Under the pieces are notes generated by a model. It had not been told where the DNA came from. It worked only from the letters and a program-made list of their open reading frames with translations, and did not search any database. The translations under genes and the position numbers were made by a program. From NCBI GenBank assembly GCA_001692895.1, contig KV748199.1, positions 1 to 64,000 on the forward strand: DNA of 64,000 nt. Direction: 5' to 3'. The stretch's first letter is position 1. Every line of letters starts with the position of its first letter. Of the stretch, positions 40,701-64,000 are shown in pieces. The DNA comes from Cenococcum geophilum 1.58 (Eukaryota > Ascomycota > Dothideomycetes > Gloniales > Gloniaceae).

Positions 40701-41060
40701 TAAGGTAAGAAAATTAACGTTATTAATATTAATTCTCTAAAGGATATATAGAGTAACGTGCTTATAAAGCTTATATTACTTCTATCTATTAACCTAAGGC
40801 TTTATTTAATTTCTTTATTACCACTTAACACTAGGAACTAACTAAGGATAATATCCTTACCCTAAATAAGCGTCTTTTTTAGTAAATAAACCATCTTAAT
40901 TAGGGACTACTCTATATACCTATTAATCTTCCTACCGCTAAGCTCTTTATATTTATTAATAGATTATTTATAAATAATAAAAAATTTTGCTCCTAGTTAG
41001 GATATAAGATTATTATTATAAATAAATCTACTAGAGAGAATAACTTTATAATCTATAGTA
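37732..41060 (+). pseudogene. gag end, protease, integrase and RT remnant of element A
   Basis: A protease motif (PDTGAVGVFI) is seen with its GAT at 38313. An integrase region follows, with FKFTLKNNYNFN and SGKPVL blocks and NIYLGPPN near 39030. The reverse-transcriptase region lies at about 39900-40700 and the start of RNase H at about 40880-41060. Every block has TAG/TAA stops. It aligns along its whole length with element C at 42850-46165. Confidence 0.78.
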
Positions 41061-41065
41061 ACCTT

Positions 41066-41282
41066 TATTGGGAATAAAGGCAAGTGGTTATAATATAAGG
41101 CATATTGCCGTCACGTATGGCAAGTTGCCGTTACGTGCGGCAAGTTGCCATCACGTGCCGCCGCGGCACTAGCGTGGTAAGGAACCTTAAGTTTCTTATC
41201 CCTTTCTTTAAGATAAATATAGAACAATTATTATACTATCTACGAACCGTAGCTACGTAATATCCCCCTTATGTAACTAATA
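41066..41282 (+). repeat. 5' LTR of element C
   Basis: 217 bp. It is followed by CTAATTAGTGGTTAACTTCA, the same leader or primer-binding stretch as in A and F. The extra length compared with A comes from a three-copy internal repeat. Confidence 0.9.
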
Positions 41283-41696
41283 CTAATTAGTGGTTAACTT
41301 CACTGTTATACTATAGAGCAGCTAGGTATTCCACTAAGAAGAGACAAGCCACTATACCAGTGCTACTCGTGCTAAAGGGAGCTGTTTTTTAAGGTTAGAA
41401 CTAGTCCTAAATCTTAAATAGAACTCTTTTATAAATTTAAGGATTTAAAGGCTAGAACTGGTCCTAAGCCTTTCTAAGATTACAGATTCTTGCGTCTATT
41501 ACGCAGAATAACACGCTTTATAAGTCTTTACGATTTAAGGCCAGAACTAGTCCTAAGCCCTATAATCACAAATATACGTCTAAACGCGTACTAAATGACA
41601 AACGCGTACTAAATAACAAATATATATCACGAACGCGTACTAAATAACAATCCTTATACTAATAACACTTCCCTCCCTTTAAAAACATGGCTACGC

Positions 41697-44600: not shown

Positions 44601-46560
44601 AGTCTAAAGTATATATATAGCGTAAAAAGGGAGGATAGTTAGGCCTATACTAACTTATTATAATTAATAGTTAAACTTATACTATTTAGATGCCTTACGG
44701 ACCTACTTAATTCTATTTAACTGTCATTAAGCCTTATTATAAAGATAATAATTTTAAGCCTTTATAGGATGCCCTAGAAGATACCCTAGAAGAGAACTAC
44801 AATTAATATACTTTAGAAGGCGACTACAATCCCAATATAATTATAGTAGATACGCTATAACTATAACACGGTAGAGGTCACCCGAAGGGATTACAAAATC
44901 GCTAACATCTTATTAATTTTAAAGAATAATTTATTACCGCTATTAAGAATAGAGTTAAGTTATTAATGGCCTTTATAATAGCTAAAGAGAAGGCTAATTT
45001 TAAGCTTATAAAATAGCTCTAAAAGGAAGGTTATATTATAACCCTAGGAGCTCCTTTCTAAGCATCTAATAAGCAGGAGATTGACGGTCTTATTGTAAGA
45101 GGAGTCTTTAAATTTAAGAAGTATGACCCTACTAAATTCAATAGAGTTCGCATCTTTAAGTTAAGAATGGTTAATAAGATTAAGGGTAAAGCTATTAACG
45201 CCCTATTTAAGAAATTAAGGCTTATTATCTAAGGTTATAACAACAATAGTAAGGAAATAATTTTTACGTAATTTCCTATAATTTAACGAGCTAGTTAACA
45301 AGTTATTGTTATATTAGCTCCCTCCTTAATAAAGAATAGAATGGCGGTCTATTTATAAGATATTACCTAGGCCTACACCTAATTAGAGACGCACCTTTAG
45401 CGCTTAATATTGGCACACCTTTTAGAGCAAATTCGCCACTAGTATCCTAAAGATATAATTATAGTTATGCTTAAGCCATTATATAGAATCGCAGAGGTAG
45501 AAACTTACTAGTGGGCTACCTACAGTAAGCACTATAAAGAGAAGCTTTTAATGACTACTTCTATATTTAATCCCTGCTTCCTTATTATAACTACAGGAAC
45601 CCTATTTAGAATTATTAGTATATAAACTAATAATATAATTATCTTAGGAGACGACTAATTCTTAGCTCTTAAAGAGGATAAGCTAGTAAAGGTAAATCTT
45701 ATAGCAAAGCTAAAGGAAAAGCTTAATTTAATAACACTATTACTCTTTAATAGATATATCCTCTTCCTAAATAAGGATTCTATTGCTTTACGCCAGAAGG
45801 GTTAAGGTAAAAAGATTAACGTTATTAACGTTAATTCTCTAAAGTAAGGATATATGGAGCAACGCGCTTGCGGAGCTTATATTACTTCTATCTATTAACC
45901 TAAGGCTTTATTTAATCTCTTTATTGCCGCCTAATACTAGGAACTAACTAAGGATAACGTTCTTGCCCTAAATAAACGTCTTTTTTAGTAAATAAACTAT
46001 CTTAATCGGGGACTACTCTATATACCTATTAATCTTCCTACTACTAAGCTCTTTATATTTATTAATAGATCGTTTATAAATAATAAAGATTTTAGCTCCT
46101 AGTTAGGATATAAGATTATTATCGCAAATAAATTTACTAGAGAAAATGACTTTATAATCTATAGCAATCTTATTTATTAGAGCTTAACTAAAAGCAAGCA
46201 CGTTACCCGAAGTGTTTTAGCGTTAAAGATATATAGAATAGTTAGCGGAGTTAATATAGTAATTGCAATTAGAACTACCCTAAAGATAATTATAGATTAA
46301 CTCGCACTTTCCGTTATCCCTATAATTATATGCACCGACTTATATTCCCTCTATAAGTATTTAATTAAGCTTAGTACCATAAAGGAGAAGCGCCTTATAA
46401 TTAATATTATGGCACTTTAATAATCCTACAAGCGTTAAGAACTCTTTAAGATTTAATAGATTAATGGCTAAGATAACCCGGTAGATATAATAACAAAGGC
46501 AAACCTAAATAAGGCACTAGAGACGTTTGTTAACATAAATACTCTACGTATATAAGTTAA
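41697..46560 (+). pseudogene. RIP-damaged gag-pol of element C
   Basis: It starts with MATPTLNN at the ATG at 41697. A protease DTR variant of DTG lies near 43415. Integrase blocks FKFTLKNNYDFN and INIYLGPPN follow. The reverse-transcriptase active site reads TNN where copia elements have TDD (45626-45634), so both aspartates became asparagine by G-to-A change. RNase H ends with TTLKIIID, AVIP-type and SLYKYLIKLSTIKEKRLI blocks near 46260-46420. Multiple TAG/TAA stops are present. The family makes its own particle, integrase and RT, but this copy cannot. Confidence 0.82.
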
Positions 46561-46609
46561 AGGTTAGGTTAAAAGGGAGTCCCTAGAAATTTCTTAGTCA
46601 TATAAGGTC

Positions 46610-46665
46610 TTAAGATGTCCAGGAACTTCAACCGGCGGTCGAAGTTATCTAATTGGTCAGATTCT
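46610..46665 (+). repeat. 3' hairpin module of element C shared with gypsy element E
   Basis: It runs from TTAAGATGTCCAGGAACTTC to AATTGGTCAGATTCT with an inverted repeat AACTTCaACCGgCGGTcGAAGTT. A second hairpin (TTTTCCATCC/GGATGAAAA) follows at about 46698-46720. It lies between the end of pol and the 3' LTR. Confidence 0.75.
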
Positions 46666-46939
46666 ACGGACCCTGACTTAACCCAGCCAATTAGGATTTT
46701 CCATCCCCGGGATGAAAAATCGCTATTGGCCCGCTTACTACTAGCGCCTTGGCGGCCCTCCGAATAAGATATCTACCTGCGACTCCTAAGTAAGAAAGTA
46801 CCGCGTGCTAAGAGGCAAATTTTAGGACAGCGAGACTTATATTGCAATAGCAATAGTAAGTAAGGAGGATTAATATTTGTTCCGCTAGTTAAGCGGTATC
46901 TGTATATATAGATAGCAACCGTAAAAGAAGAGTTGCTAG

Positions 46940-47156
46940 TGTTGGGAATAAAGGCAAGTGGTCACAATATGAGGCATATTGCCGTCACGTATGGCAAGTT
47001 GCCGTTACGTGCGGCAAGTTGCCATCACGTGCCGCCGCGGCACTAGCGTGGTGAGGAACCTTAAGTTCCTTACCCCTTTCTTTAAGATGAATACAGAACA
47101 ATCATCATACTATCTACGAACCGTAGCTACGTGATATCCCCCTTGTGTAACCAATA
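46940..47156 (+). repeat. 3' LTR of element C
   Basis: 217 bp. It holds three ~20-bp units of the type TGCCGTCACGTATGGCAAGT between about 46980 and 47035. The purine-rich GTAAAAGAAGAG lies just upstream (46921-46932) in the polypurine-tract position. Confidence 0.9.
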
Positions 47157-47161
47157 ACCTT

Positions 47162-47560
47162 ATCTATTAGAGCTTAACTAAGAGTAAATACGTTACTTAA
47201 AGCGTTCTAGCGTTAGAGATATATAGAATAGTTAGCGGAGTTAATATGGCAATTATAATTAGAACTACCCTAAAGATAATTATAGATTAACTTAAAATTC
47301 CTATTATCCCTATAATCGTATATACCGACTTATACTCCCTCTATAAGTATTTGGTTAAGCTTAGTACTATAAAGGAGAAGCGCCTTATAATTAATATTAT
47401 AGCACTTTAGCAATCCTATAAACGGTAAGAACTCTTTAAGATTTAATAAATTAACGGCTAAGATAACCCAGTAGATATAATAACAAAGGTAAACCCAAAT
47501 AAGGCTCTAGATATTTATTAACACAAACACTCTACATATACGAGTTAACGGTTAGGTTAA
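47162..47560 (+). pseudogene. RNase H remnant of element A
   Basis: Element A's pol resumes after C. The blocks match 46165-46570 of C nearly base for base, apart from transitions, including the SLYKYLVKL region. The frame is broken by stops. Confidence 0.75.
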
Positions 47561-47624
47561 AAGGGAGTAGAAGCAAGACTTATATTATAATAGCAATAGT
47601 TAACAGGCATGTGCTATGCGCTGT

Positions 47625-47775
47625 TACGGTTCTGGCAGAATTTGGCAGAATTCTATGGCCTGGTAGAATTTGGCAGAAGTCTATGGCCTGGCAGAATTTG
47701 GCAGAAGTCTATGGCTTAGCAGAATTCGGCAGAATTCCATAGTATGGCAGAATATAGCAGATTGCGGCAGATTGC
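47625..47775. repeat. ~34-bp tandem array TGGCAGAATTTGGCAGAA in the tail of element A
   Basis: About four units of tggcagaatttggcagaa plus gtctatggcc lie between pol and the 3' LTR of A. Element F carries a single related unit (about 16930-16960). Confidence 0.8.
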
Positions 47776-47895
47776 GGTCTTATAGCTAGCCTTAATCGGT
47801 GGGCGTGTGTAAGGTATTACGAGGTAGACCTATGGCACTACGCTAGTTAAGCAGTATTTGTATATAGATGGCAACCACAAAAGAAGAGTTGCCAG

Positions 47896-48055
47896 TGTCG
47901 GGAATGAGGCAAGCGGTCGTCACGTGTCGCCGCGGCACTAGCGTGGCGAGGAGCTTAAGGCTCCTCGCCCTCCCTCATTCCAACAATCAATCGAATTACA
48001 ATCATCATACTATCTACGAACCGTAGCTACGTGATATTACCTTGTGTAACCAACA
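47896..48055 (+). repeat. 3' LTR of element A
   Basis: 160 bp. The complete hairpin (47946-47968) is present. It is preceded by the purine-rich AAAAGAAGAG and followed by the duplication caagg (48056-48060). Confidence 0.9.
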
Positions 48056-48084
48056 CAAGGAATATACAGTTAGCTTTTAAAGTT

Positions 48085-48235
48085 GTTAAGTAGGTTAACT
48101 GCGTGTTATTTAACTTTTAAATATATTAAGTTGGTTAATTGCATGTCGAGTTGGTCTAATTGCGTGTTAAGTTAGTTAATTGCATGTCAAGTTGGTCCAA
48201 TTGCGTGTTAAGTTAGTAAAACTAAAGCTTTAGAA
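48085..48235. repeat. ~40-bp tandem repeat with TTAATTGCATGTC
   Basis: Three or four imperfect copies of aagttggtctaattgcgtgtt and aagttagttaattgcatgtc are seen. The left flank of element A (29960-29988) has the same kind of sequence, so A entered this array. Confidence 0.6.
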
Positions 48236-48257
48236 TATTAAATTATTTAAGCCTTTA

Positions 48258-48660
48258 GCTAAAGGGGGGGGGTAGTATAATGGGACTAGCCCAGTTATAG
48301 TAAGAATGTCTTAGTAAAATACTTAATAGATAAATTCTGCCAAGTTTTACTAAATTCTACCAAAACGAACGTTTTAGTAAAAATCGACGCTTAACTAAAT
48401 TCTGCCGAATTCTACTAGCTTAATCGACTTTTGCTAAGTTCTACTAGTTCTATTAAATTTTACTAAAGTCTGTTAAAGACCGCGTGCGTATATATATATG
48501 TATTAACCACTAAGACCTCTAACTATTTAATTATAAGTTTCTCTTATTATTCCTTTCTCTTCTTTACGCAACATCTCGTTTTTAGCAAGAGCTATATACC
48601 CTTAGATTTAGATAGAATTTATACTGTCTGAATAAGGTTCTGTAATATAGTAGACACGGT
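48258..48660 (+). mobile_element. probable retroelement 3' end: polypurine tract and LTR remnant
   Basis: An AAA plus nine-G run (48261-48272) is followed by TAGTATAATGGGACTAGCCC. This resembles a polypurine tract joined to the start of a copia-type LTR. The following ~380 bp are AT-rich, with repeated TTCTGCC/TTCTACC motifs and a CTCTTCTTTACGCAACA stretch, as in LTR ends. No partner LTR is in the window. Confidence 0.35.
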
Positions 48661-49975
48661 TGCTTGTAACCAATTAGGTTAACCACGTGAGCTAAGCGAG
48701 CTCAGGAGATCCATCAAATTCCACCTGTAGAAGTAGAAAGAGAAAAGAAGAAAATCGATTGAAACCAAAACCCCCCCCCACCGTGACCCGAACATATACT
48801 ATTCCTTTAAATCTTCCCTAAAGTCTCTTCGCGCCCTTACAATTTGTTATATATATTCTACCATAACTTACTATACGCGCTTTTTTTCTAACCAATTAGA
48901 AGCCGGCTTAGTACTTTTTTTAACTAATTAAAAGCCGGCTTAGCAAAGTTTAAAAATTAAGATAGGAAAGTAATAGACCACTTATACCTCAGGTTAATAA
49001 ATACTAGAGTACGCTTATAGGGGTAGCTAGAGTATAGCTTAGCTTAATATATTCTAGTAGTTTAAATAACAGTACTTCTGTTATTTTCTATATCTAAACA
49101 CTAAAAGGAAGATTTATTAATAAAAAGAAAACCTCCTGGCTATACTTAGCAAATTACCTCAGCGAGCTTAGACGTGATTTTTTAGCTAGCGTTAGAATAA
49201 CCTACGCCGTCTTCTAAATTGCAAAATTACGTCTAAGAGCCTACCTTGGCAAGCTCGGACGTAATTCTATTGGTGCGGATTTTCAATTAGTCCGCAAGCT
49301 GACTAACTACGTTTGTACGAAACTACCAGAATCACCACATTTACAACGTTTATTACACGCTCCGACAATATCCGCATTGCGGAAGTTACGGATATTGAAA
49401 TAACTCAACACTAGTATTTTATATCCTTTCCTAAAGTTTATTGATTATACAACAGAACCTAGGCTTTTAGGCTATATTATTTTTATCACTCAGGTATTCT
49501 TAGGTCTTATACTTATTTTCGCCAAAAAAAAAACGCGTTATTAAGGATTGTAGAACTCTATATAATTTTATTAAACGCTAGCTATCCCTTAACCTGCTAA
49601 GATGGGCTTATCGATAACGTTAAGCCCATCTTAGCGGGTTAAGGGATAATATATAAAACCTATATAGATCTACAATAGGTACCTTAAGGCACCTACTATA
49701 GCCAGGCGGATATATAATATCCACGTTATGCTAGATAATCTCCCTCTAAACCTTATTATATACCGACTACTAAGTAATAGATATTTAAGCTAACCTATAG
49801 TATGCCGCTATAAAAATGCGTTACATAGAGAGGTAGAAGGTTAAATAAGATACTAGAACAGCTGCTACCGTATTAGATGCCGGATACTTAAAATTGAAGA
49901 AGTTATAAGATGGAGCGGGAGCGACGGCTCCGAATGGATACCCGCAACGTCCTCAATCGCACTGCGAGTCTCTTC
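48661..49975. other. AT-rich transition region without a gene
   Basis: Remnants of repeats and the hairpin at 49583-49648 lie here. Two TATCCGC-containing inverted motifs occur near 49360-49395 and near 50395-50425, but I could not assemble them into an element. GC content rises from about 49900. Confidence 0.45.
49583..49648. repeat. 66-bp near-perfect hairpin
   Basis: The arms are TATCCCTTAACC-t-GCTAAGATGGGCTTA and its complement, with one mismatch, around a short loop (tcgataacg). It could be a mini-MITE or a palindromic insertion footprint. Confidence 0.75.
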
Positions 49976-50095
49976 GTGCAGAGCTTCGAGCAGAGCTTCG
50001 TGTAGAGCTTTTGCAGAGCTTTGGTAGAGCTCCGTGCAGAGCTCCGTGCAGGTCTCCCCCTGAGCTTCGTTCCGCAGAGCTCTCGCAAAGCTCCA
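49976..50095. repeat. 12-bp minisatellite, GAGCTTCGTGCA-type, third locus
   Basis: About nine degenerate copies (gagcttcgtgca, gagctccgtgca, gagcttttgca). It sits at the boundary between the repeat-rich and gene-rich parts. Confidence 0.75.
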
Positions 50096-50219
50096 CAGCT
50101 CTACGAAGAGGGCTGGCGGCGTGGGCGTAAGCGTTCAGCGTTGGTGTTTACTGAGCAGCTCAGCGGTGCAGAGGTAGAATTAGGGCCTCTACAGCTCAAC
50201 GTCGCGCGCGTATAAGGAG

Positions 50220-50775
50220 CTGAAGATCTTATAACTTATAGAGTAGGCTTTTCTCTATAATTTAGTGTAGTTTTTATGTTGATAGGTACTGTGGGAGGGT
50301 AGATTAATTTCGTTAAAGTTAATAAGGTCTTCTCATGTAAATCGTGTTTAGGTTTTCCCATAAATCTTCGCCAAAGTCCTAAATCAGCTTAGCGGACGGT
50401 GCGGATATTCCTATATCCGCAATCGATTTCTTGGTCTGAGCTTTTGAGGTAACTTGGCAAAGTCCGCCTATTGTGATGACTAATGAAACTGTAATGATAC
50501 CTTTACTTCCCAACTTGGTAACTGCCAACAACGTGTGGTGCATCAACCTTCGAGGGTATAAGCTTCATGCTTGGATAGGCTTGTGAATGAAGACAACGAA
50601 GTGATGTAATACGGCTAAGTCCTTTTTGCCATTCCCTGGGAATGCATCTCTTTCGCTGTTAAGAAATTCGAGAGCGTGGAATTTCTTTCAATACACTGAG
50701 AACCAAACTTTTTCGTTGACGTCTTTCAGAAACGTCTGCCTTCCACTAATCTATATTTCCATCTTATCCTTCAAT
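50220..50775. other. 5' region of the RecQ gene
   Basis: The composition is balanced. Upstream Mets in frame with the helicase (for example 50626) exist, but the stretch before 50776 reads as low-conservation sequence, so I take it as promoter and 5' UTR. No other gene is seen. Confidence 0.5.
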
Positions 50776-52408
50776 ATGCCCGGAAAGAAGAAAGCCCAAC
50801 AGGATCTTGATTTCACGTTGCGTCGAGTATTCGGAAAGCAAAGTTTTCGGTTAGTGCGTGTTAAGAGATTCTCCTCATGCAATGCGCTTATACTTCCATC
50901 CAGTCCACTTCAACGAGAGGTTATCACGGCCGCACTTGATAGAGAAGATGTATTCTTGCAAGCTGCAACATCGTTTGGCAAAAGCTTGTGCTTTCAACTG
51001 CCAGCTATTGTCGATTATGGCAGTACGTTTTCCTCGCTGAAAAGGTAAACCTGGAAACTGAAGGCTTTGTCTGTAGTCACTATAGTCATATCCCCTCTTC
51101 TAGCATTGATGGTAAGATGATTATATTCCTACTTTAAAGTGTGGCTCGTCTCATCTTCTGTCACAGAATAATCAAGTGGCATCAATGCGAGCCGCCAACG
51201 TCAAAGTCGCCACAATCAATAGCACTACACCTCCGTCTGCCAAAAACGCTATCCTGGAGGATCTCCAGTGTGGACACCCCTTAACCCGTCTTCTATACGT
51301 AACCCCAGAATTCTGTACACTCGACCATTTCCGCAAAATCCTCCGTGTTATCCACTCTCAACGCGAACTCTCCCGTATCGCCATCGATGAAGCTCACTGC
51401 ATCAGCGAATGGGGCCACGACTTTCGTCCCTCATTCAAATCCCTTTCCTTCTTCAAACGTGAATTCCCCGATGTGCCCATGATGTGTCTCACAGCAACAG
51501 CCACAGCACGCGTCCGTGAGGACATCATCACCACACTAGCTCTCGACCCAGCCAAGCTCAAGCTTTTCACGATGACAACAAGCCGCCCGAACCTGCACTA
51601 TGAAGTCCGATTTAAATCAGACGAAGAGGACCACTACTCCGATTTCCTCGCCTGGCTCCGCGCAGCACACGCCCGCCGCACCACCAACCCAGCCCGCGCG
51701 GACCAACTCGCAGCCCTCAACCAGCGCGCCGACAACGTTCCAGGCATCATCTACACGCTCTTCCGGCGCGACTGCGAAAGCCTCGCCGCACGCCTACGTG
51801 CGGACGGCATCGGCGCAAAGCCGTACCACGCAGGGCTCCCGCACACGGAACGCGCGGACGCGCTCGCGGGCTGGGTGGAGAACCGGGCAGGCTACGACGT
51901 GATCGTGGCCACGACGGCGTTCGGTATGGGCATCGACAAGGAGAACGTCCGCTTCGTCGTACACTGGCAGATCCCCAAGTCGTTGGAGGGCTTCTACCAG
52001 GAGGCCGGCCGCGCGGGCCGCGACGGCAAGGCCGGCGTCTGCATCCTGTACTACGGCCGCGAGGACCGCGATCGCGCGGCTAACATGATGGCGCGAGATA
52101 ATGCGCGGCGCGAGCCGGCGTTTCGCGAGTCAGTGGGTGCGGGTGCCGTGGTGCAGCAGGCACAGGTGATGGGTCGTGCGAAGAGTCTGCAAGCGCTGGT
52201 GGCTTACTGTGAGAACACAGCTGGGTGCAGGCATGAGGCCATTGCGAAGTATTTTGGGGAGCAGGCTAAGCCGCCTTGTGAATGGGCATGTGACTGGTGT
52301 AAGGATGCGGTGGGGCTGGTCAGGAGGAAGGAAAAGGGGTTGGCGAGTGAGGAGTGGTGTTCGACGCAAAGGGAGATGGGGACGTATACTGTCAACGAGT
52401 ATGACTAA
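50776..52408 (+). CDS. RecQ-family ATP-dependent DNA helicase, short form
   Basis: Four exons (50776-50849, 50904-51022, 51077-51111, 51167-52408) are separated by introns of 54, 54 and 55 bp and give 489 aa in frame. RecQ enzymes unwind DNA 3' to 5' with ATP in recombination and replication repair, in the nucleus. Visible motifs are motif 0/I with ATSFGKS (Lys51), motif II DEAH (150-153) in IAIDEAHCISEWGHDFRPSF, motif III TATAT (185-189), DVIVATTAFGMGIDKENVRF (motif V, 320-339) and QEAGRAGRDG (motif VI, 354-363). A zinc-binding set follows, with Cys430, Cys447, Cys451 and Cys454. No winged-helix or HRDC domain follows, so it is shorter than Sgs1/BLM-type proteins. The start MPGKKKAQQDLDF is chosen because it directly precedes the conserved fold; an in-frame ATG at 50626 would add 50 residues. 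Exon 4 is markedly GC-rich. It converges on the UBX gene. Confidence 0.9.
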
Positions 52409-52814
52409 GGGTCATGCTGTTTTGCAAGTAGATCTCTTTGGCGCAACAGATAGCAATCCGCGTTAGCTTGTTTATTAATGTGTTACATCTATACGGGCAT
52501 GGCCGTTACGGTGTTGATTTCCAGATATTGAATTTTCGTAGCAAAAAATCAAACGTGGACATTGGCAAGACAATTCCGATATGTCTAGTTTTTATTTACC
52601 ATCAACGCTCACTTTATGATGGGTATTTATTTGACAAGAGCATCTGTATGTCTTTGGTTAAGAGTCAGAGTCTTGTATAAATCTTAGGCTTAGCTCAATC
52701 GTTATCATCCATTGTATTCGTGTTACTTCATACCTACCCATAGTGCCGTCGTCCGCACCAAGACTACCGAGAACTCCAGATATGCAATAAATATGTCGAC
52801 CGGGAAAGAGCCGT
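52409..52814. other. convergent intergenic region, RecQ and UBX genes
   Basis: It holds the 3' UTRs of two tail-to-tail genes. The open frame inside it lacks any conserved signature. It is AT-richer than the exons. Confidence 0.6.
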
Positions 52815-53841
52815 CTATTTCACAATGAGAGCAGCGCTTGGAACCATACCAGCTTCCTTCAAGGTCTGGCCAAAATCAGTACGATCGAATACCTTTTTCG
52901 GGAAGGTTTGCGTGAAAGTTGAGACTTCGATGCCTTGTTCCGAGAGGGCATGTGCAACTTCAAAGAGGGTGGTTTCCGCGGGAAAGTTCTTCATAATGCG
53001 TCCGCTCGGGGTCTGGAGCGCAAGTCTAGCTTCGGTATACGCAGATGCAGGCTTTGATGTTGTGGGGCCAGAAGAAGTCACATGGGAGGATTCAGCAATG
53101 GTAGGAGGGGCTTGTCCGGCCCTGGCAGCCTTCTCCTGCTCAGCCTTCCTCCGCCTTTCCGCCTTGTCGGCTTCAATCTTGGCTAAAGCGCGTTTGCGAG
53201 CATCAATCTCATCCTGTTTCTCACGCTTCTTGGCAGCCGCTTCCTTTAGACGTTCCTTTTTCTGCAACTCCTCTTTGATGTCCTGGGATTCCTTTGTATT
53301 TTTCATCCGAATTTGTTCATTCTTCTTCCGATCAATCTTGTCCTGTTCAGCTTGCCTCGCTTTCTTCTCCACCATCTTTACTCTCAGCTCCTCAAGCTTA
53401 GCTTTTTTCTCCTCTTCCGTGAGCGGCTTGATCTCTTCTGTCGATTCGGAGAAATTCTCATGTTGACTGCGGTAACCATGTATTAGAAACTGGCTGTATA
53501 GAGCTTGGCAAGGCCATCTTACGTTTTAGAGGCGTGAAACTCAGCTTGTGCTGTGCTGCGAAATCGTTTCCCACAGTCGTCACATACAAGGCTACGAGCT
53601 TCCTCGCCAGGGTTGAGAGCAGCGGGTTCCGCGGTGGCATCTTCCTCCTTGATCTGGTCCAGCGGCTTTTCCTGGTTCTTGTCTAACCAGTCGATGGCGT
53701 CTTGTACTGAGCTGGGGTTAGTTGCAATCAGGCAAAAAATAGAACAGAGAGCTTACATCCGCCAGTTTTCTTGACGGCCATCTCTGCTCGCTCCCGCTCG
53801 AAGCCCATGTCGATGAGCTGATCTAAATCTGAAGTCGACAT
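52815..53841 (-). CDS. UBA / C2H2-type zinc finger / UBX domain protein
   Basis: Three exons on the minus strand (53841-53757, 53706-53523, 53466-52815) with introns of 50 and 56 bp give 306 aa. The first intron has the branch motif aactaac and uses the acceptor gctcag. The N-terminus LDQLIDMGFERERAEMAVKK with LQDAIDWL is a UBA domain that binds ubiquitin. C70-D-D-C73...H86...H92 forms a C2H2-like finger. Residues ~105-200 form a long charged Lys/Glu coiled coil. Residues ~225-306 (from LALQTPSGRIMKNF to the end) are a UBX domain, which docks on the Cdc48/p97 ATPase. The protein therefore probably brings ubiquitylated clients to Cdc48, like the SAKS1/UBXN1 class. It shares its upstream region with the divergent MSP-domain gene. 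Confidence 0.88.
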
Positions 53842-54338
53842 ATCAGGGTGACAAATGCGACAATTTTAGGGTTTGGTGATGTAGTTGAGGTGGGGTGTTC
53901 CGATGTGGGAGAACGATGGAGTGACGAGGATAGAAGGAACTTTTAGCAGTATATTCAGGTTAGTGATTCGTTAGATGAATATTAGGCTATTTCTGTGTGA
54001 AGTAAGATGGTTATTGAGGTGTATCCCAGGTGTGATTTAGGAGGTAGCAGATGTTGCGCAAGGCACCTGCAAGTGACGTTCTTCACCACACACAGGGCAA
54101 ACAACCGAACCAAGACCCGCGAGGCTCGCTCCAGCCTCCAGTCCTCCAAGGTCCATCCACCGAGACAACGACATATTGATCTCACACGAAACACCATTTG
54201 TCTACCTACTTATATTGTATAAACCCTGTCCCGCCCTCAGAGCTAGAGTCTTGCTTCCATCTTAGAACACTCCTCTAGAACGGCACAGGAACCTCCGCTT
54301 GACGCTGTACTCTCGTCCCCAACGCCAACGTCGTCATC
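53842..54338. promoter_or_regulatory. bidirectional promoter region, UBX and VAP genes
   Basis: 497 bp separate the two divergent start codons. It is partly CT-rich near the plus-strand gene (tcgtccccaacgccaac just before its ATG). I see no individual binding site that I would name. Confidence 0.5.
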
Positions 54339-55519
54339 ATGTCGGTCGAATTAGAACCAGCAGAGCTCGGCTTTAAGCGTACGGCCCTCTATTATTTGGC
54401 TGGAAGTTGGACATGAAGGTGCTAAGGTGTCCAGGTCCCTTTCAGCATGAAGTATCGCAGGTTCTGAGGCTCAAGAATCCGCACAGTGATCCCGTGGCTT
54501 TCAAAGTAAGTGAATAACACCACCTGATGCGCTGTCATAATCCCACAGATTGACTGACTGATGCTATGCGAAAGGTTAAAACCACAGCTCCGAAGCAGTA
54601 CGTATTTCCACAACCGCGCGGCATCCCACACGAAGTTGACAATGTGATGCAGATACTGCGTGAGACCTAACTCTGGGCGCATAGAGGCGGGAAAAGAAGT
54701 CGAAGTTCAGGGNATGGAATTTCCTCAGTGCTCTGTGGGGGTCACGAACTGCTGACATGTGCATACAGTTTTACTGCAGGCCATGAAGGAAGATCCACCA
54801 CTAGATGCAAAATGTCGTGATAAATTCCTCGTACAATCAGTTGCAGTAACTGCAGATAAGGAGTTCAGTAACGTTGCATCAATTGTATGCCACGCTTGTA
54901 GCATAAGTGGGATACAATTTACTTACTCTTTCTGCAGTGGGCGCACATTGAACAGACCGCCAAGTCGTCAATCAAAGAGAGAAAGATTCGAGTGGTATTC
55001 TTACCTCCCGATGATGCTACTGCAACCCCTTCTAGGATGAACGGTGCTACCCATCTTAATGATTCGACTATGCTACCATCACCATCTCCGGAAGCTGTCA
55101 CCCCTCAACGCGTCTCTACCGCAACGCCGGTTGGATCTGTCTCACGGCCGGAATCCCGTCCTGCAGAGAGCAAGCATCTTGGAGACACAGTGGAGTCCGC
55201 GCATAACCCTGCCACTTCCGGTCAGCAATCTACAGTTGCTGCAGCTGCATCAGGAGTAGCTAATGCCATACCCACGTCATCTGCCGAGCTTAAGGCGCAA
55301 CTTGCTGAAGCAAAGGCCACTATATCAAAGCTAAGGCAGCAAGCCGAGCAGGGGCTAAGGCAGAGGAAGAGTGACGCAGTGAACCAGGATTCCAAAGAGA
55401 GGATCACCATGGGAACTACGGACATGGGGGTACAGCAAGCTCCTGCAGTTGGTGTGCCGGTCCAGATCGTAGCGGGCCTATGTCTGCTGAGCTTTCTCCT
55501 CGCGTACTTTTTCTTTTGA
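54339..55519 (+). CDS. scs2: VAP/Scs2-type MSP-domain ER membrane protein
   Basis: Six exons (54339-54378, 54435-54505, 54575-54597, 54653-54711, 54769-54884, 54938-55519) with five introns of 53-69 bp give 296 aa. Residues 1-125 are a major-sperm-protein fold: MSVELEPAELGFKR, then PFQHEVSQVLRLKNPHSDPV, FKVKTTAPKQY and CVRPNSGRI. A Ser/Thr/Pro-rich linker, a coiled coil (AELKAQLAEAKATISKLRQQ) and a C-terminal membrane anchor (VQIVAGLCLLSFLLAYFFF) follow. Such proteins sit in the ER membrane, bind FFAT motifs of lipid-transfer proteins and hold ER-plasma membrane contacts. Several exons are very small (23 bp for exon 3). The donor of intron 4 contains an N at 54713 (G-N-ATGG), almost certainly a GT. 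Confidence 0.9.
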
Positions 55520-56317
55520 TCGCCCCCGCAATTCGAAATTCATCTTTCCGCCTGCCAAGGCCCCCTACCGTGCGCCAAGCGCGGCCCCGGATTTTCAGAC
55601 GTTGCACGATGGGTGGGGTGTCGGGTAGTGATCTCTCGATCATATTACGAGGAAATGGGTCAAATGGGTCGGAGAGGGTATTTGAGATGAAGAGGGGTTT
55701 CTTTTTGCCGTTAACCGGTGTCTCTGCGTGATCATTGTCTGCTGTGCTTCCGGAGCTGGTGGTGGGCTGTATCCATTGGGTCTATGAGGTTTTGGTTTTA
55801 CTAGCACATTGGAGAGCTGGAGAGTTTAATGAGTTAGCATGTTCGCTGCAAAGCGCCACTCTGTACCAACAGTCCACAAATACGACTTGTTTCGCTGCCA
55901 CCTGCACGCGCTACACATCTCTGAAAGGTCACGGGAGACCTAAGGTGTTATTACTCCGTGTGGGGGAACAGCGCATGCCAAAGTTAGTTTCTCACGAAGC
56001 ACCTATTAGCCCGTGCAAGCCCCGTTCCGTCCCCATTCCTCGCCATTCTCCCCATTCCTCCCGCACCCTCCCCACTCGACATTCCTATTTGCGTCGTGTA
56101 GACGAAGCCATCACAAAGAGAGATGATGGCTATCCACGGGTACTTGCAAGGACTGGCTTTCTTAGCGCGGGGCAATACTTGGCTGATCCACGTGCAGGTG
56201 AGTCAAGAATTTCTGGTGGGTGTCCCTTCGTCGCATGCTCACTACTTAAATATCCCCCAATTCCAGACTCTCTCCCTTCACTCCTCACCTCTTTGAGTCC
56301 TTTCTCCAGTCACCAGC
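55520..56317. other. upstream region of the asparagine synthetase gene
   Basis: It has a CT-rich tract around 56010-56090 and a TGAGTCA site at 56199-56205. A 227-codon plus-strand open frame (55735-56418) runs into the synthetase start in another frame and has no conserved features, so I do not call it. Confidence 0.6.
56199..56205 (+). promoter_or_regulatory. Gcn4/CPC1-type binding site TGAGTCA
   Basis: The exact 7-bp AP-1-like sequence bound by Gcn4 in yeast and CPC-1 in filamentous fungi lies 113 bp before the start codon of an amino-acid biosynthesis gene. That fits cross-pathway control induced by amino-acid starvation. Confidence 0.55.
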
Positions 56318-58576
56318 ATGTGCGGCATCTTCGCTTGCCATTGGTACGTCTACAGTCCTTCCACCGCCCGCGCAGCCGCTGCGAAATTCCCCTCGTGCTC
56401 GGCTTGACAAGTAACTAATGCTCTTGCAGCCACCCCAATGTCCAAAAATTCAAGCCCACAGCGTTGCGTATGGGCAAAGCGTAAGTTCTCTCTTTCGCGA
56501 CCTCACCGAATTTCTACTGACTGTCTGCGATAGCGTCCGACATCGGGGACCGGATTGGAGTGAGCATAACCCTCAGAAATGACTCCTGGAGCATAATACT
56601 AAGCCAATACAGGTGGAAATTGGATCGCGAACAATACCAGTAAGAGCACAGAAATTTGGAGAGCCTAGCAGTGAAAACTGACCGAATGCGTAGTTCTCGT
56701 CCACGAGCGCCTAAGTATCGTTGGTCTTGGTACAGTCATACGAGCCCTGAAACCCAACCTCCCACTTACGATGAGGCAGATTCTGGCGCGCAGCCCCTGG
56801 TCAGTGATGATGGCAATGTATCACTGGCTGTCAATGGCGAGATCTACAACCACCGTGTTCTTCGCAAGTCTTTCAAGACACCCTACAATTTCAAGACAAA
56901 ATCAGATTGCGAGGTTATAATACCGCTGGTATGTGGGCAAGGCAGACTACACTTTGGATATTGATTCTGACCTTTTGGCTAGTATCTCGAACATGGAATT
57001 GATGCACCGAAGCACTTAGATGGCATGTTCTCCTGGGTACTTCATGATAAGGCTCAGGACCGAGTCATCGCAGCCCGAGACCCTATCGGAATCACTACGT
57101 TTTATATGGGCAGATCGAGTGCAACTCCGGGAGCCGTTTACTTTGCATCAGAGCTGAAATGCTTACATCCGGTCTGCGATAACATCATCTCTTTCCCCCC
57201 GGGTCATGTATACGACTCAAAAACGGACGCGTTGACACGGTATTTCGTTCCAAAATGGCTCATGGAGCCGACCAACATTCCAACCGCTCCGGTTGATTAC
57301 AAACTACTGAGGACAACCTTTGAGAAATCTGTTCGAAAACGGTTGATGGCTGAAGTGCCTTATGGAGTGTTGCTTTCTGGTGGTCTTGATTCCAGCTTGG
57401 TGGCCTCGATTGCCCAGCGGGAGACTCTCAGACTGAACGAGCTTGCCAAGAAGAACACCAATGGTGTGAATGGAGTTAACGGAACCAATGGAGTCAATGG
57501 AACCAACGGAGTCCACCATAACGGTGTTCAGAACGGTGATAGTACGTCTCATTTGGTTGGTATTGATGACGGAGATGAGCTGTCCACTGTTCAGATCTTA
57601 CCTCAGCTACATTCATTCTCTATCGGGCTTCCAGGCGCTCCAGACGGCGTGGCTGCCCAGGAGGTAGCCAAATTCCTCGGCACTAAACATCACACCTTCA
57701 CCTTCACCATTGAGGATGGCCTCAACGCGCTGTCAGACGTCATCTATCATTTGGAGACCTTCGATGTTACCACTATCCGTGCTTCCACTCCCATGTTCCT
57801 CCTGAGCCGGAAGATCAAGGCCCTCGGGGTGAAGATGGTGCTTAGTGGAGAAGGAAGTGACGAGATTTTTGGAGGCTACCTCTACTTCCATGCTGCACCG
57901 GATAAGGCTGCGTTCCATCAAGAGACCATTCGAAGAGTCAATAACCTGCACTTGGCGGATTGTTTGAGAGCCAATAAGTCGACCTCAGCATGGGGTGTTG
58001 AGGCTCGTGTGCCATTCTTGGACAAGCAGTTCCTTGAGGTTGCAATGAACATCGACCCAACGGAGAAAATGATCACGAAAGAGAGAATTGAGAAGTACAT
58101 TCTCCGAAAGGCTTTCGACACTTCAGATGAACCAGATGAGAAACCATATCTTCCAGACAAGATTCTCTGGAGACAAAAGGAACAATTCAGTGATGGTGTC
58201 GGGTATGGCTGGATCGATGCACTCAAAGACAATGCCGAGATTCATGTCAGCGATGAAGACATGAAGAACCCCAAGCCAGAGTGGGGCAATGATATCCCAG
58301 ACTCCAAGGAAGCGTAAGTGCATCGTCTGCAGTGATATGGCATTATTTGCTAACAATCTCTAGATACTGGTATCGGACAATGTTCGATGAACACTTCCCC
58401 TCCTATTGTGCTTCAACTGTCATGCGCTGGACCCCAACGTGGTCAAAACAGACCGACCCCAGCGGACGGTACGCTTGCTCCCATTGGCTAATCTTCAATT
58501 ATGGAAATAGATCGACTAACTGGCTTACTATAGTGCAATTGCAATCCACGAAAACAAATACGATGAAACAAAATGA
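56318..58576 (+). CDS. asn2: asparagine synthetase (glutamine-hydrolysing)
   Basis: Nine exons (56318-56343, 56430-56480, 56534-56559, 56613-56639, 56694-56729, 56780-56928, 56983-58313, 58364-58468, 58534-58576) give 597 aa in frame. The enzyme makes asparagine from aspartate, glutamine and ATP in the cytosol. MCGIFACH at the start supplies the catalytic Cys2 of the glutaminase domain. Further glutaminase landmarks are [16 protein letters not shown] and SDCEVI. The synthetase domain has the ATP-binding SGGLDSS (about residue 237-243), [15 protein letters not shown] and EARVPFLDK. It resembles yeast ASN1/ASN2. Five very small 5' exons are typical of fungal orthologues. An Asn/Gly-rich insertion of about 30 residues (about 262-291, [13 protein letters not shown]) separates SGGLDSS from the following conserved part. 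A Gcn4-type site lies upstream. Confidence 0.95.
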
Positions 58577-59298
58577 GAATTTTCGACTACCTAGACTGTC
58601 ACGTTCCTTTATGAGAGCATGAGAATTTCCTTGGAGTTTTCAATTCTTACGGTGCTTAGGTTACGGAACCATTTCTCATGGCTCGTATCTGGAGGATCGC
58701 TTTGGTAGATTGTTCATGGGGTGGCTGCACTGCATGATTTCTTTTGTTTCTAGGGTCTCCTTGTAAATAAAACGCATCATGAGACATCATTTGGGTGGGA
58801 TCCTTGTGACACGTGGGATATGTGACATTTATTGAGTAATCAGCACCCACGAGCTATCTCCGAACTTGGCATCCAATCTCCATTGGACAACTCTATTTGA
58901 ACGCAGAACCGTACCCTGTTCTTTTATCAACCAATCGTTTGATAGATACTTTGGTACCATGAAAACTGCCGAACTAGGCTGAAAATATTTTCTGTATCAA
59001 GCGATGACGTTGTCGGCCCTTGCAGCATGCAGGAGACTCCGGCAGAGTTGCTGCGGGGTCCAATCGATAATCTTGAACGCCTCCAGGCAGCTTTGATGGA
59101 ATCTAGTTATTTAGGAAAGCTAATATTTTGCTAGGAAATTATATTTATCGAATTTCCATATTAGAAGTTGTGCTTGCGTTCCCAATCTGTTATGTACTAG
59201 GTCAAATCTCATTTTTCTCCCGTCTTTCTTAAAAGAACCCTTGAAAGCCTTGCAGTACGCAATCATTCCTATAATCCTCGCGGCTGAAGTGCCTCGCT
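58577..59298. other. intergenic, asparagine synthetase and gasdermin-like genes
   Basis: About 720 bp hold the 3' UTR of the synthetase and the promoter of the next gene. GC falls to a moderate level. No conserved frame or known motif is seen. Confidence 0.55.
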
Positions 59299-60135
59299 AT
59301 GGCCAACAAAGTGAAAACCTACTTCCTAGTCCCAGGCTGGGACTTCCCCGTCGGCTCGATCCAGCTGGGCGCCGTGATCACCGACCCAGCATTCCCACAC
59401 CGAGCGCTCAACGAGGACGACCTGGTACCCATCGACACCAAGATCCACCCGTCGGACAAGTACGACTTCAGCTCGACGATCGACAAGTCGCGGAGCAACA
59501 AGTTCGGGCTGTGGGCGCAGTTCCTGCAGATCTTCGGGCTGGGCGGCGAGCTCAGCGTCGCGTTCGACAAGGGCGCCATCGACAAGTACTCCTTCAAGCA
59601 CATGCACACCGAGTGGTTCCTGCCGAGCGCCGCGTTCGCGAAGGCATGCGTCAAGGTGCCGAATGTGGCGGACTTCCTCGAGCAGACGGAGTACAAGAAG
59701 CCTGTGTATGTCATTACGGGCCTAAAGACGGTCGAGGGTGCGAGCGTCACGACGGCTAAGAGTAAGGGCCGTGGACTCAAGGCGAAGTTGGGGTTTGATG
59801 GCACGCCGCCGGCGGTGCCGATTACGGTGAGTCCGGAGGCGGAGCATCAGAATAACGAGTCGGAGACTGATGGGTTTGAGAACTCGTCAGCGATTGTATT
59901 TGCGTTTCAGCTGAGCAAGGTGGCGTCTAAGGAGGGCGGCCAGAATGTGTCGGTCAAGGAGCATACGAAGGGCGCGCTGTATGGGGTTAGGGAGAAGAAG
60001 AAAGTGGATTTAGAGACGGAGGTTGCGGCAAGCGTAAAGTTGGAGGGGAGAGAGATTGTGCCGGTGGTTGACGAGGATGGCGAGGAGGTTTGTAATTGTG
60101 TCTTGCCTGATATGGCTGCAATAGACGATCCTTGA
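59299..60135 (+). CDS. fungal gasdermin-like protein (RCD-1/HET-Q1 type)
   Basis: A single exon encodes 278 aa. The start KTYFLVPGWDFPVGSIQLG followed by ITDP-FPHRALN, the block KKPVYVITGLKTVEGASV, then GFDGTPPAVPI, then IVFAFQLSKV and KGALYG near the C-terminus resemble the fungal gasdermin-like family. Members form membrane pores and trigger cell death after activation, in N. crassa by meeting of incompatible alleles and in Podospora by cleavage of a short C-terminal tail. The neighbouring convergent gene (stop codons about 112 bp apart) encodes an S8 protease, as for HET-Q1/HET-Q2, which is strong support. A basic stretch VREKKKVDLE at about residue 230-240 precedes the acidic C-terminal tail and could be a processing region (inference). 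The third-codon GC bias is high in the 5' half, more than in neighbouring genes. The family call is by recognition, not by search. Confidence 0.72.
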   Translation: MANKVKTYFLVPGWDFPVGSIQLGAVITDPAFPHRALNEDDLVPIDTKIHPSDKYDFSSTIDKSRSNKFGLWAQFLQIFGLGGELSVAFDKGAIDKYSFKHMHTEWFLPSAAFAKACVKVPNVADFLEQTEYKKPVYVITGLKTVEGASVTTAKSKGRGLKAKLGFDGTPPAVPITVSPEAEHQNNESETDGFENSSAIVFAFQLSKVASKEGGQNVSVKEHTKGALYGVREKKKVDLETEVAASVKLEGREIVPVVDEDGEEVCNCVLPDMAAIDDP

Positions 60136-60247
60136 TCGGAAAGTCTAGGGTTCTTCTAGCCATCATAGTAACTTTAGGGCAGTTTATGGACTTGTGGTCA
60201 AGTATCAGCTTTCACACGAATATTTAAGCGCCTTTGTGATGAAACAT
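60136..60247. other. 112-bp convergent spacer, gasdermin-like and protease genes
   Basis: This is the short AT-richer spacer between two stop codons. The transcripts probably overlap in their 3' ends. Confidence 0.7.
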
Positions 60248-63200
60248 CTACACTTTCTTTAATTTATCTAGTATAGATCCATATACATTCGTCATATCTT
60301 TATCAAATAACTTCCCTGGATCTATGTAGAGATAATTGCCTCTATTCCTAGTCATGAACCTGAAAACCTCTAACATTCCCTTTCGCTTCTTCAATTGTGA
60401 AACGTAGAACTTCTCATCTTCCGACTGGGCGTGATGCCGCGCATAGTCCAGCACGACGGCCGCCAGTGCCGCAGCGATCGGCGTTGCAAAGGACGTCCCG
60501 GACTTTCGTTGCTGGCCTAGCTTGAACTTAGTCGGCCAAGATGATCTCACGTCTTCGCCTAGAGCGCAGAGATTTCGCCCCACTGCTGGCTCATCTGGGT
60601 TGAAAGTTGACGGAGTCCCCTGATCATTAGCGGAGTTGATACAAATAACTTCGTCTTGATTAGCCGGATATGCAATGTCGTCATTGCCGCCACCGTTACT
60701 AGCGGCGCAGAAAATGAGGATTTTGGCTTTGAAGGCTTCATCAATGGCGTCTTGTATACCTTTAAGGCACTTTTTAAACGAGGGAAGCCGAAGGACATGC
60801 TTATGATATCGACTTTCCAGTCTCTTGTGGCGTGGAGGATTGCCTTTCTAATGTCAGCTCGTATTACCAATACTAGCGAATGATATAATAAAGGAGAGAG
60901 GGGATGATTCCAGGGCAGACGACAGGCCGCTGGTTAGGAATTGCGAAGTGCTCTAGCGGGTCTTTGCAAAATGTCTAATACCCCCAATCAAGAATTGTGG
61001 ACTCCTTCGTCTAATCTAGGGAGTTTGGATAGCCTTACATCTTCTATAGTCTTAGGGTCTGATAATTCGTCATCTTCGGTAATACGAGCAACAAAGATGT
61101 CTGCATTTCGTGCCACTCGCAGGAGCAGTGCTGCTGCGTGCGTGCCATGCCCATGTGTATCTTCAACTTTGCTATCTTTCAGCAAAAAGCTTTGGGTAGT
61201 AATTCTTGCTCGGTTCATAGAAATGAAGCTCTCGGTCATGTCAATGCCCGTATCGAGGATAGCAATTTTAACGCGATTCTCCTGTTTGGGGGTCTTCGGC
61301 AGAAGTGGAAAAACGTCCTCGCGAAGGGATTTGAACCACTGGTCTGCATGGCCTGCCGCACCCACGCGTGGATCCTTATCGTCAAAAAGAGCAAACTCAT
61401 TCCTGTTAGATCTTGGCTGGGCTGCTTTTTTCCGTCTCCGACGCCTAGTGGACGGTGACCGACTCCCGGCGTTAGTAGCGGACTCTGCTACTTGGTGGTC
61501 GATTTCGGGTAAGCCCTGAGACGATTCTTGGTGCGGCTCCTGATTTGACTCATCCAGACTACTTACACAATTACCTCCTCTTCTCTTACGATTTCGAGCC
61601 TTCGAGACTTTTTGCTCTACGGCTTCAGTTCTAGAAGCCATGGCGACCGAGAACTCAGGCTGAATCAAAACCCCAGCACTTGCCCCCGTGGTGGCCCCTT
61701 TGCTTAACTTACAGTTCGTTTGCCGCGATATGGAGGAGTCTGATATGCTGGCCGAGCTCATCGGAGATAATGTTCTATCATCAGATACAATATGCTCCCC
61801 GTCGTGAGCCTCATGGACGGTGGGATACCTCTCTGATAGATCAAGTGGGTGAAGTGGAGTATCTCTGCTATGTGTATCCTGTATCTTATCGCTAACCGCT
61901 GCACCCGTTCTGAACTTTGGGAGAGCTGAGTGATGCTTGGTCTGATTAGACTCAAGTAAAAGCTTATCCAATTCAGTGACAGATAGTTGGTAGCCTCTTA
62001 GCTCCTTCTCTAACGGCCATGCAACGTTCCTGTAGAAGGATTGGTATAGGGTTGAGCCGTCAAAATCATTGGCATAGCCTTGGAGATTCCAATTTAGACA
62101 AAATTTAACAGCCTGGCGGTAATCATCGTGTACATCCCAATCAGCATCATCGCAAAGCCTGACTGCAGCCCAATAATCTGTATTCACATCAACTTTCCCC
62201 TCGGGGGTTAGATCTTCCTCCAATCTATACTCCTCTATGGGTTTCCCAAAGAAAAGCTCCAAGAGGACAATTCCCAAGGCAAGGACGTCCGGATTCGGGT
62301 GGACAGACTGTTCTTCTTCTGGGAATGGATGGTTTCCGAGGTTCGAGTCAAATTGAGTGGATATGACTGGTCGTGGAAGAATTTCGTCCTGGATAGTTTG
62401 CATGAACCGGATACTGTCTTTGCTCCATCCCTTTGGAAGCCATGGAGTGCCACAAAGTTGTAGAGCAGAGTTTGCTATGACGACAGCCAATACGTGGTTC
62501 AATCCAGACTGTTGCAAACTAGACTTAAGCCGCAAAGATTTCTGGATGACTTCGCTTAAAGGTATTTGGTGACGAACCTTCTTGGCGAAAGATTGGCGGG
62601 GAGGGGGTGGGTTTCTCCAAATCTTATCGTTCTCGATCACAAGATTGAGAGACAGATTGTTGTTGCGTGGAGCAGCTAGACAGATGGACTTTATCGGAGG
62701 ATCAGAACGGGGAGCCAGATTTTCCATTGTGCCATCTGTCGAGTGGACTACTATGGGTATTGATGAAGGGGCGATATCACTATCGTCTGGTCAGCTGAAA
62801 GGAAAAAAAGATGAAACTGCGGTATTGCCTGCTTACTCTGCGGCTGTTACACAGACATTGCTCTCCTGCCATATTTGTGGAGTAGTATTCGGCCTATTTA
62901 TGAGTAAGTCAAACGTAAGTTTTGACCGGTGGTTTTCCGCGCTTCGATGCGTTGCCAAGTACAGTATACCCTCGTGCGTAGAATGACAATTACATGNCCA
63001 GTGATTCGACACTATTTCGTACAGAACCTTCGCAAATCTCCGAACATCCTGTGCGGGCGCTTTGTCTGGCGGCTTCGACAGATCAACTGGGACCAGTTTG
63101 GAACAAATACGGCTCAACTCTTTTTCATACTGAGTTATTTGTTTTGATATTTCGCTGCGGCAATTATGTGGTGGCCCAAACAAGAAATCGGTACATAATA

Positions 63201-63629
63201 GGTTTCCATATCCTAGGGCTGAGAGTCTGGGGTATGCCGGAACGGTGGCATAGCTCTGTTGAATTGACACAGCTATCAGCTAATTTACCAACGCTCTAGA
63301 AAGGATAGTCATACAGTTTGGTGGAAAAGCTCCGATAAATCTACCAGTAAACTCTCAAATAACCCGAGCAAGCCCTCGATCTGGCTTACACAATCCTCTT
63401 GCAATTGCGCCCACGCCTGGCTCCTAAGAATGTAACCGAGCTTTTGCTGAAGCTGATTCAATATCATCACCTCTGAATAGAAGATGTGGTACGGCATCCA
63501 GACGTCGTCGTCGCCACTGCTTTCTTCAGCGCGATATTGCGCAGCGACTGCAAACTTTGGGAGAATCGCGCTCAACAACTCGAAGAGTTCAATCGCAGAG
63601 TTCCTAAACTTAGGAGATGCGGATGCCAT
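60248..63629 (-). CDS. subtilisin-like (S8) protease with N-terminal fungal regulatory domain, frame disturbed
   Basis: Minus-strand exons are 63629-63315, 63255-62837, 62779-61039 and about 60847-60248, about 1024 aa. Introns 1 and 2 are canonical (59 and 57 bp, the second with a CTGAC branch). The N-terminal ~480 residues, including LALGIVLLELFFGKPIEEYR, look like the fungal DUF7580 region found in death-related proteins. A Ser-rich linker with a basic RRRRRRKK stretch follows. The S8 core has Asp754 in AILDTGID (61252-61254), His in HGHGTHAAALLL (about 61144-61152) and the Ser in SGTSFATP (60491-60493). The expected role is cleavage and activation of the adjacent gasdermin-like protein. 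One oddity is that the conserved segment WKVDIISMSFGF (60780-60830) lies out of frame with both sides. A formally valid splice (donor GTAAGG at 61038, acceptor TTAG at 60848, 191 bp) would read through in another frame. An N lies at 62998. It may be a sequencing error, a compensated double shift, or an early pseudogene. Confidence 0.75.
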
Positions 63630-64000
63630 TTTTGAAGCATGGCGACTGGAGTGAAGGGACGTTGCCTCTCTCGGATTTAGAAAACTCAAGGACGGCGAGC
63701 GTACAAGGCTCGCGGTTCACTTCAAGGTGTTGTTCAGCCCTCCGCTCCGCCATCCATCCCCAGTTTCTTTAGCGTCGTGCGGCGCTAGCCGGGCCAAGGC
63801 GGCCCCCACGCGGAAGCTACATCGTCTAGTCAGTCCTTGACGATAGCACTTCTAGGAGCGCAACGAAATCCTTCAGGGCAGGAGCTCAGGAGCAATTTTT
63901 ACACTTTTTCTAAAACAAATGCCCCCTTTCAAGGTTTTTGCAGTGTCGGTTTGATACTATCATAAAGTACCAAAGTGGTCGAAGCCATCCAAGAGGTCTG
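63630..64000. other. 5' region of the S8 protease gene
   Basis: GC-balanced sequence with no gene of its own. The first in-frame ATG of the protease is at 63629; upstream codons in the frame have only a TTG. Nothing else is recognised before the window end. Confidence 0.55.

Follow-up and report, generated by a model that had tools for sequence, protein, structure and literature searches.

Convergent gasdermin and DUF7580-S8 protease genes in Cenococcum geophilum: a probable regulated-cell-death module of the HET-Q1/HET-Q2 type

The first 64,000 nucleotides of contig KV748199.1 of Cenococcum geophilum 1.58 (assembly GCA_001692895.1; hereafter the window) carry near their right end a fungal gasdermin gene and a gene for an S8 protease, which converge on each other. 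The analysed genome comprises 177.2 Mb on 162 contigs, and the window is the start of contig C24. The gasdermin gene (59299..60135, plus strand) is an intact single-exon open reading frame of 278 amino acids counted from its ATG. The protease gene lies on the minus strand, with its ATG at 63629 and its stop ending at 60248. The two stops are separated by 112 bp (60136..60247), well within 10 kb. The original prediction had described a gasdermin-like gene standing tail to tail with a protease that has a DUF7580-like region at its N-terminus, and the reading frames together with the domain searches confirmed this arrangement.

The Pfam search of the 278-residue protein gave zero matches, so its identity was established from other comparisons. 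In a PDB sequence search it matched the HET-Q1 pore structure 9uv9 (E 9e-4), a 46-row profile built on it matched RCD-1-1 (8e-8), and its predicted structure is a gasdermin fold, for which RCD-1 is the best match in both fold and profile. The product is thus a fungal gasdermin (fGSDM) by homology to RCD-1 and HET-Q1 and by fold, which answers the fold check proposed with the original prediction. In the structure model and the alignment a pore-forming part (approximately residues 1-222) is followed by a low-confidence linker (223-245) and then by a confidently modelled, conserved C-terminal segment (approximately 246-270), a putative inhibitory tail. A second stretch of low confidence spans residues 154-188. 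D258 and E259 are conserved in 43 of the 46 rows and C265 in 41. The nearest named relative, from Acephala, is 69% identical.

The protease gene requires four exons and three introns. Exon 1 (63315..63629) is an open reading frame for an N-terminal region that has no Pfam match. It is followed by intron 1 (63256..63314, GTATGA...ACAG), placed from the reading frames. Exon 2 (62837..63255) contains the start of DUF7580 (PF24476; 1.3e-6, 28.7 bits against a cut-off of 27) and an N at 62997, one of the 33 unresolved bases in the window. Intron 2 (62780..62836, GTAAGC...ATAG) gave the best join against P0053 (relatives labelled P00xx are cluster representatives only). Exon 3 (61039..62779) encodes the main part of DUF7580 (2.7e-21, 77 bits), a variable linker and the start of Peptidase_S8 (3.4e-4, 20.4 bits, below the 21.8 cut-off). 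Intron 3 (60844..61038, GTAAGG...AAAG) was chosen as the best join against P0061 and P0066, both of which are continuous across this position. Exon 4 (60248..60843) holds the remainder of Peptidase_S8 (1.5e-13, 51.2 bits). Above their cut-offs, the window protease pieces and P0053 contain only DUF7580 and S8 in Pfam and neither NB-ARC nor NACHT, the domains of NLR proteins.

All four S8 motifs are present: AILDTG (Asp) and HGHGTH (His) in exon 3, AASN (oxyanion Asn) and GTSFATP (catalytic Ser) in exon 4. They do not, however, fall within one open frame that keeps the core strand between them. As assembled, the reading frame shifts near 60780, inside the S8 domain, with ...DIISMSFGFP and the following SFKK... 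in different frames. We found no open frame through the complete S8 core in the window assembly, where open splice joins leave out the conserved core strand. P0059, which represents 7 sequences and is 95% identical over 90% of the query, is continuous through the break site; intact copies of the protease therefore exist. P0052, a relative from another assembly, is 90% identical. Open S8 joins with all four motifs were also obtained for the paralogues on C65 and C92, and an open S8 join exists in the one on C5. The break in the window is either a lesion or an assembly error. The earlier description of a protease gene holds for its domains; it mentioned neither the three introns and the N nor the frame change.

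To judge the pairing, we turned to the whole genome, in which the window's 278-residue protein, used as the single query, gave 7 gasdermin matches, a number that may be too low. S8 gave 17 matches, merged into 15 loci, and DUF7580 gave 33, merged into 32 loci; for families this large such counts are minimum values. An S8 match stands 284-1973 bp away from six of the seven gasdermins, in each case less than 2 kb. The two genes might have been neighbours by coincidence, an ordinary intracellular subtilase standing beside a gasdermin with no functional link, as S8 proteases are common enzymes and this genome has many. Under random placement of the 15 S8 loci, however, the chance of at least 6 gasdermins lying within 3 kb of one is about 5e-19. 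This makes chance a poor explanation of the pairing, and since the same pair also occurs in another fungus, Venustampulla, we regard coincidence as extremely improbable. Reviews put the protease-linked share of fungal gasdermins at about 80% (PMC12881547).

The proteases linked to gasdermins in this genome differ in what precedes the S8 domain. DUF7580 is found on three of the six, namely in the window and on C65 and C92. On C5 (914001-924000) the gasdermin converges with an ankyrin-S8 protease, the ankyrin frame lying ahead of S8. A TPR frame precedes S8 on C1 (Pfam). The frame at the equivalent position on C102 gave no significant Pfam match and is called TPR-like purely by its position and by the kinship of the C1 and C102 loci. 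Both of these loci (C1:5646001-5656000 and C102:284001-294000) are sets of three genes, a HET-domain gene, a gasdermin and an S8 protease; identities of 52% between the two HET proteins and of 50% between the gasdermins would fit a duplication of the entire set. The seventh gasdermin (C24:1664574-1665461) is 34% identical to that of the window and has no S8 match nearby; S8 was the only protease type searched, and a CHAT protease may accompany it.

Outside this genome, Venustampulla carries a gasdermin (BP5553_05671, 55% identical) and a DUF7580-S8 protein (BP5553_05672) with adjacent locus tags. Additionally, 8 contigs, Venustampulla included, are apparently common to the 49 gasdermin and the 106 S8/DUF7580 matches, as judged indirectly from equal contig sizes and with P0001 left out of the list. 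With jittered sizes about 0.3 common contigs are expected on average. The pairing of homologues with proteases, which the original prediction had proposed to check, was thus seen both within the genome and elsewhere.

Since the best fold and profile match of the gasdermin is RCD-1, which acts without cleavage according to PMC12881547, the protein might instead respond to an incompatible allelic partner encountered on cell fusion, and the protease might serve another purpose. The existence of P0013, a more diverged gasdermin copy in another assembly (85% identity over 75% of the length), would fit such a view. We consider it improbable, as the C-terminal tail is strongly conserved, the length of 278 residues equals that given for HET-Q1 in PMC10989679, and six of the seven gasdermin matches are protease-linked. 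P0013, P0052 and P0059, all from other assemblies, are possibly alleles or cryptic lineages.

Directly to the right of the window, head to head with the protease, a third gene begins at C24:64006 on the plus strand. It has no Pfam name. Its N-terminal stretch has 7 matches in the genome, itself included, each within 3 kb of a DUF7580 match. We merged this family by hand from several queries (the window neighbour and relatives on C6 and C65) at E limits of 0.001 and 0.01. The family has 15 matches. A DUF7580 match is found no more than 10 kb from 13 of them (each with a chance of 0.4%; counted by gene, 12 of 14, as the window neighbour gives two rows), and 11 of these 13 are divergent from it. 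The remaining two lie 15 and 34 kb away. Copies and queries share only 25-44% identity, too little for recent duplication to account for the linkage. The family shows Cys/His pairs that look zinc-finger-like by eye, with no such Pfam match above cut-off. Its C-terminal parts vary: NB-ARC and then a TPR frame on C6, NB-ARC on C46, TPR on C65, a ZZ finger in the following frame on C92, and annexin with a PHD finger below cut-off on C3. A member stands within 6 kb of the gasdermin at all three DUF7580-S8 loci and at none of the other four gasdermins.

This raises the question of whether two genes suffice, as the original prediction had assumed. The pairing of gasdermin and S8 protease stood, but the DUF7580-S8/gasdermin loci come with a further, receptor-like gene, and two genes may be too few. 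In a plain two-gene module the DUF7580-S8 protein would be the complete sensor and the gene next door a mere neighbour. The reviews report gasdermin clusters of two genes whose protease protein acts as the sensor and in some cases bears kinase-like domains (PMC12881547), and give HET-Q2 just 388 residues (PMC10989679); moreover, the third family has no match closer than 10 kb to 20 of the 32 DUF7580 loci. On the other side stand the 13 of 15 family matches near DUF7580 and their presence at 9 of the 10 best-scoring DUF7580 loci (12 of all 32), despite their low identity. We regard a two-gene module as a serious option, although not the favoured one.

The neighbour itself (C24:64006-66698) is split: query residues 27-161 match 64419-64832 on the plus strand and residues 184-284 match 66632-66318 on the minus strand, apparently as the result of an inversion. 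Beside it, at 67.1-69.9 kb of C24, lie frames that appear transposase-like by eye and which we take to be of hAT type. With a break in the protease frame and a third gene that is apparently split, this copy of the module may be non-functional in this strain. The locus could then be a decaying relic: a protease pseudogene and a third gene disrupted by an inversion, beside a gasdermin that alone is intact and may either serve some other partner or simply be next to disappear. The frame change in the S8 domain, the two complementary halves of the neighbour on opposite strands and the transposase-like frames favour this. Set against it are the continuity of P0059 across the break, the unresolved bases of the window, among which a single indel may be an assembly error, and the clean gasdermin frame, whose cluster represents 16 sequences on 37 contigs. 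We find decay possible but doubtful.

What DUF7580 itself might be was approached in two steps. A DUF7580 profile aligned with seven C-lobes that look kinase-like and come from this genome as well (hhalign 99.3%, E 9.5e-21), a step that is partly true by construction, as the seven C-lobes had themselves been found by the Pfam DUF7580 profile. A six-row set (window, C65, C92 and P0054-P0056) gave 98.1% and 1.2e-13 against the same C-lobes, and the gasdermin profile, used as a negative control, gave 0.2%. In the second step, the seven C-lobes matched the kinases LIMK1 and IRAK4 and the pseudokinase MLKL in PDB at 8e-10 to 2e-9 (MLKL 2.1e-9). Where a kinase would have its catalytic loop, the window has WLPKGWSKDSIRF, which is without the usual catalytic residues. 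Given this two-step link and the lack of these residues, we take DUF7580 to be a putative kinase-like domain that has degenerated and lost activity.

According to one review (PMC12881547), some gasdermin-linked proteases carry a fused domain predicted to be kinase-like; DUF7580-S8 may belong to this class. DUF7580 by name was not found in the literature searched. In a tree of the domain the S8-linked rows do not form one clade; given its long branches and weak forks, the fusion to S8 had either a single or a repeated origin. Two rows of that tree, P0054 and P0055, are labelled unlinked, yet P0055 is apparently on a contig with an S8 piece and a gasdermin. We also considered and dropped a "defanged HeLo" origin, that is, a HeLo-like start lacking its hydrophobic helix in the S8-type proteins. 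Profile probabilities were 1.2% and 0.5%, the hydropathy of the window was only slightly lower (1.56 versus 1.65-2.25), and Pfam showed no HeLo in three other N-termini (L047, L048, L049).

Taken together, we think that the locus probably belongs to the HET-Q1/HET-Q2 type of regulated-cell-death modules in fungi, with a DUF7580 sensor part. The HET-Q logic proposed in the original prediction is partly supported, by homology, fold and linkage, but the module type was already established, and the protease of this copy is frame-broken. The DUF7580-S8 architecture and the recurrent neighbour are a variant of that type.

From HET-Q1/HET-Q2, as described in reviews (PMC12881547, PMC10989679 and PMC10197012), we infer a path from trigger to pore, including the cleavage, the cut site, the pores, the order of signalling and the role of the third gene. 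In that system HET-Q2 cuts HET-Q1, a protein of 278 residues, at F238, so that 40 residues are removed (PMC10989679, PMC12881547). The gasdermin of the window would be made in an inactive state, its conserved tail of about 40-50 residues restraining the pore-forming part through the flexible linker. The trigger would probably be relayed to DUF7580 by the receptor-like protein encoded next door. Engagement of DUF7580 would then lead the S8 domain to cut the gasdermin within the linker, a candidate place being at or after the conserved GAL[F/Y] at residues 225-228. Release of the tail would then allow the gasdermin to form pores in the cell's own membrane.

Several observations, in addition to the frame shift in the protease and the partial circularity of the first kinase comparison, weigh against this interpretation. 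A PDB profile search with 16 DUF7580 stretches returned no chain and no kinase. The fold model of the whole protease (P0053 of Venustampulla, 11 rows) was poor, with a predicted local distance difference test score (pLDDT) of 46.9; the 50 listed Foldseek and VIA rows for this model were S8 proteases and their relatives. The linkage of the third gene was observed in one genome only. Among the 49 gasdermin matches, 41 share no contig size with a protease match. No matching protease was found for the Acephala gasdermin, in searches that were weak and limited by protein length. Two further DUF7580-S8 proteins, P0057 and P0058, come from Aspergillus and may or may not have a gasdermin beside them. 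The GAL[F/Y] motif is absent from the five other protease-linked paralogues and retained in the solo gasdermin at C24:1.66 Mb, which speaks against a role as the cut site. Finally, co-divergence of gasdermins and proteases was rejected as an argument: over six pairs their identities correlate (r 0.85, with 19 of 720 permutations as high), but r falls to -0.06 once one duplicated pair, to which the correlation was due, is removed.

Compared with known systems, the locus resembles HET-Q1/HET-Q2 of Podospora anserina in its 278-residue gasdermin linked to an S8 protease. It differs in that the protease, at about 1000 residues summed over the modelled exons, carries DUF7580 in front of a domain that is found in HET-Q2 within a far shorter protein, and in that cleavage is published for HET-Q1 and only predicted here, with a broken protease frame. 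As in other HET-Q2-like (Q2L) clusters, a multidomain S8 protein stands beside the gasdermin, and ankyrin- and TPR-S8 proteins also occur in this genome. A head-to-head receptor-like gene was found here; no such link, and no description of a pairing of DUF7580 with a receptor-like gene, was found in the literature searched, mostly among the top matches listed. RCD-1 of Neurospora crassa lacks the cleavage step, whereas a protease gene is adjacent here. The bacterial gasdermin-protease systems belong to different hosts, and kinship with them was compared at the level of the gasdermin fold only. With MLKL and the fungal HELL-pseudokinase proteins the module would share the presence, in a protein for cell death, of a kinase-like domain without activity, but here that domain would be tied to a protease, and killing would proceed via a separate gasdermin.

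Two further features of the surroundings were noted. A protein-kinase frame lies at C24:70457-71980 (Pkinase 4.9e-29). Per 2 kb, the guanine-cytosine content is 31-38% at positions 40001-50000 of the window versus 48-51% around the gene pair, in the part from 50001 to 64000; the low-GC left part is, we guess, repeat-rich.

The distribution of DUF7580 allows a wider, tentative reading. Of the 32 listed DUF7580 loci, 29 are free of S8 matches over a distance of 9 kb, and at the other three DUF7580 is fused to S8 with a gasdermin gene. The head-to-head pair of a receptor-like gene and a putative DUF7580 pseudokinase, which recurs in the genome, might be a chassis for cell death into which exchangeable killing arms are plugged. 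The variable C-terminal part of the receptor (NB-ARC with TPR, TPR, ZZ, annexin) would then read the trigger, with the kinase-like domain acting as a switch between receptor and protease.

What sets off the gasdermin pathways of fungi is named as a major open question in a 2025 review (PMC12881547). If DUF7580 is indeed a pseudokinase switch with a dedicated receptor gene, the sensing step would gain a named candidate, open to deletion and exchange. Fungi would then also be seen to couple a gasdermin, and with it pyroptosis-like killing, to a kinase domain without activity, which is a necroptosis-like part.

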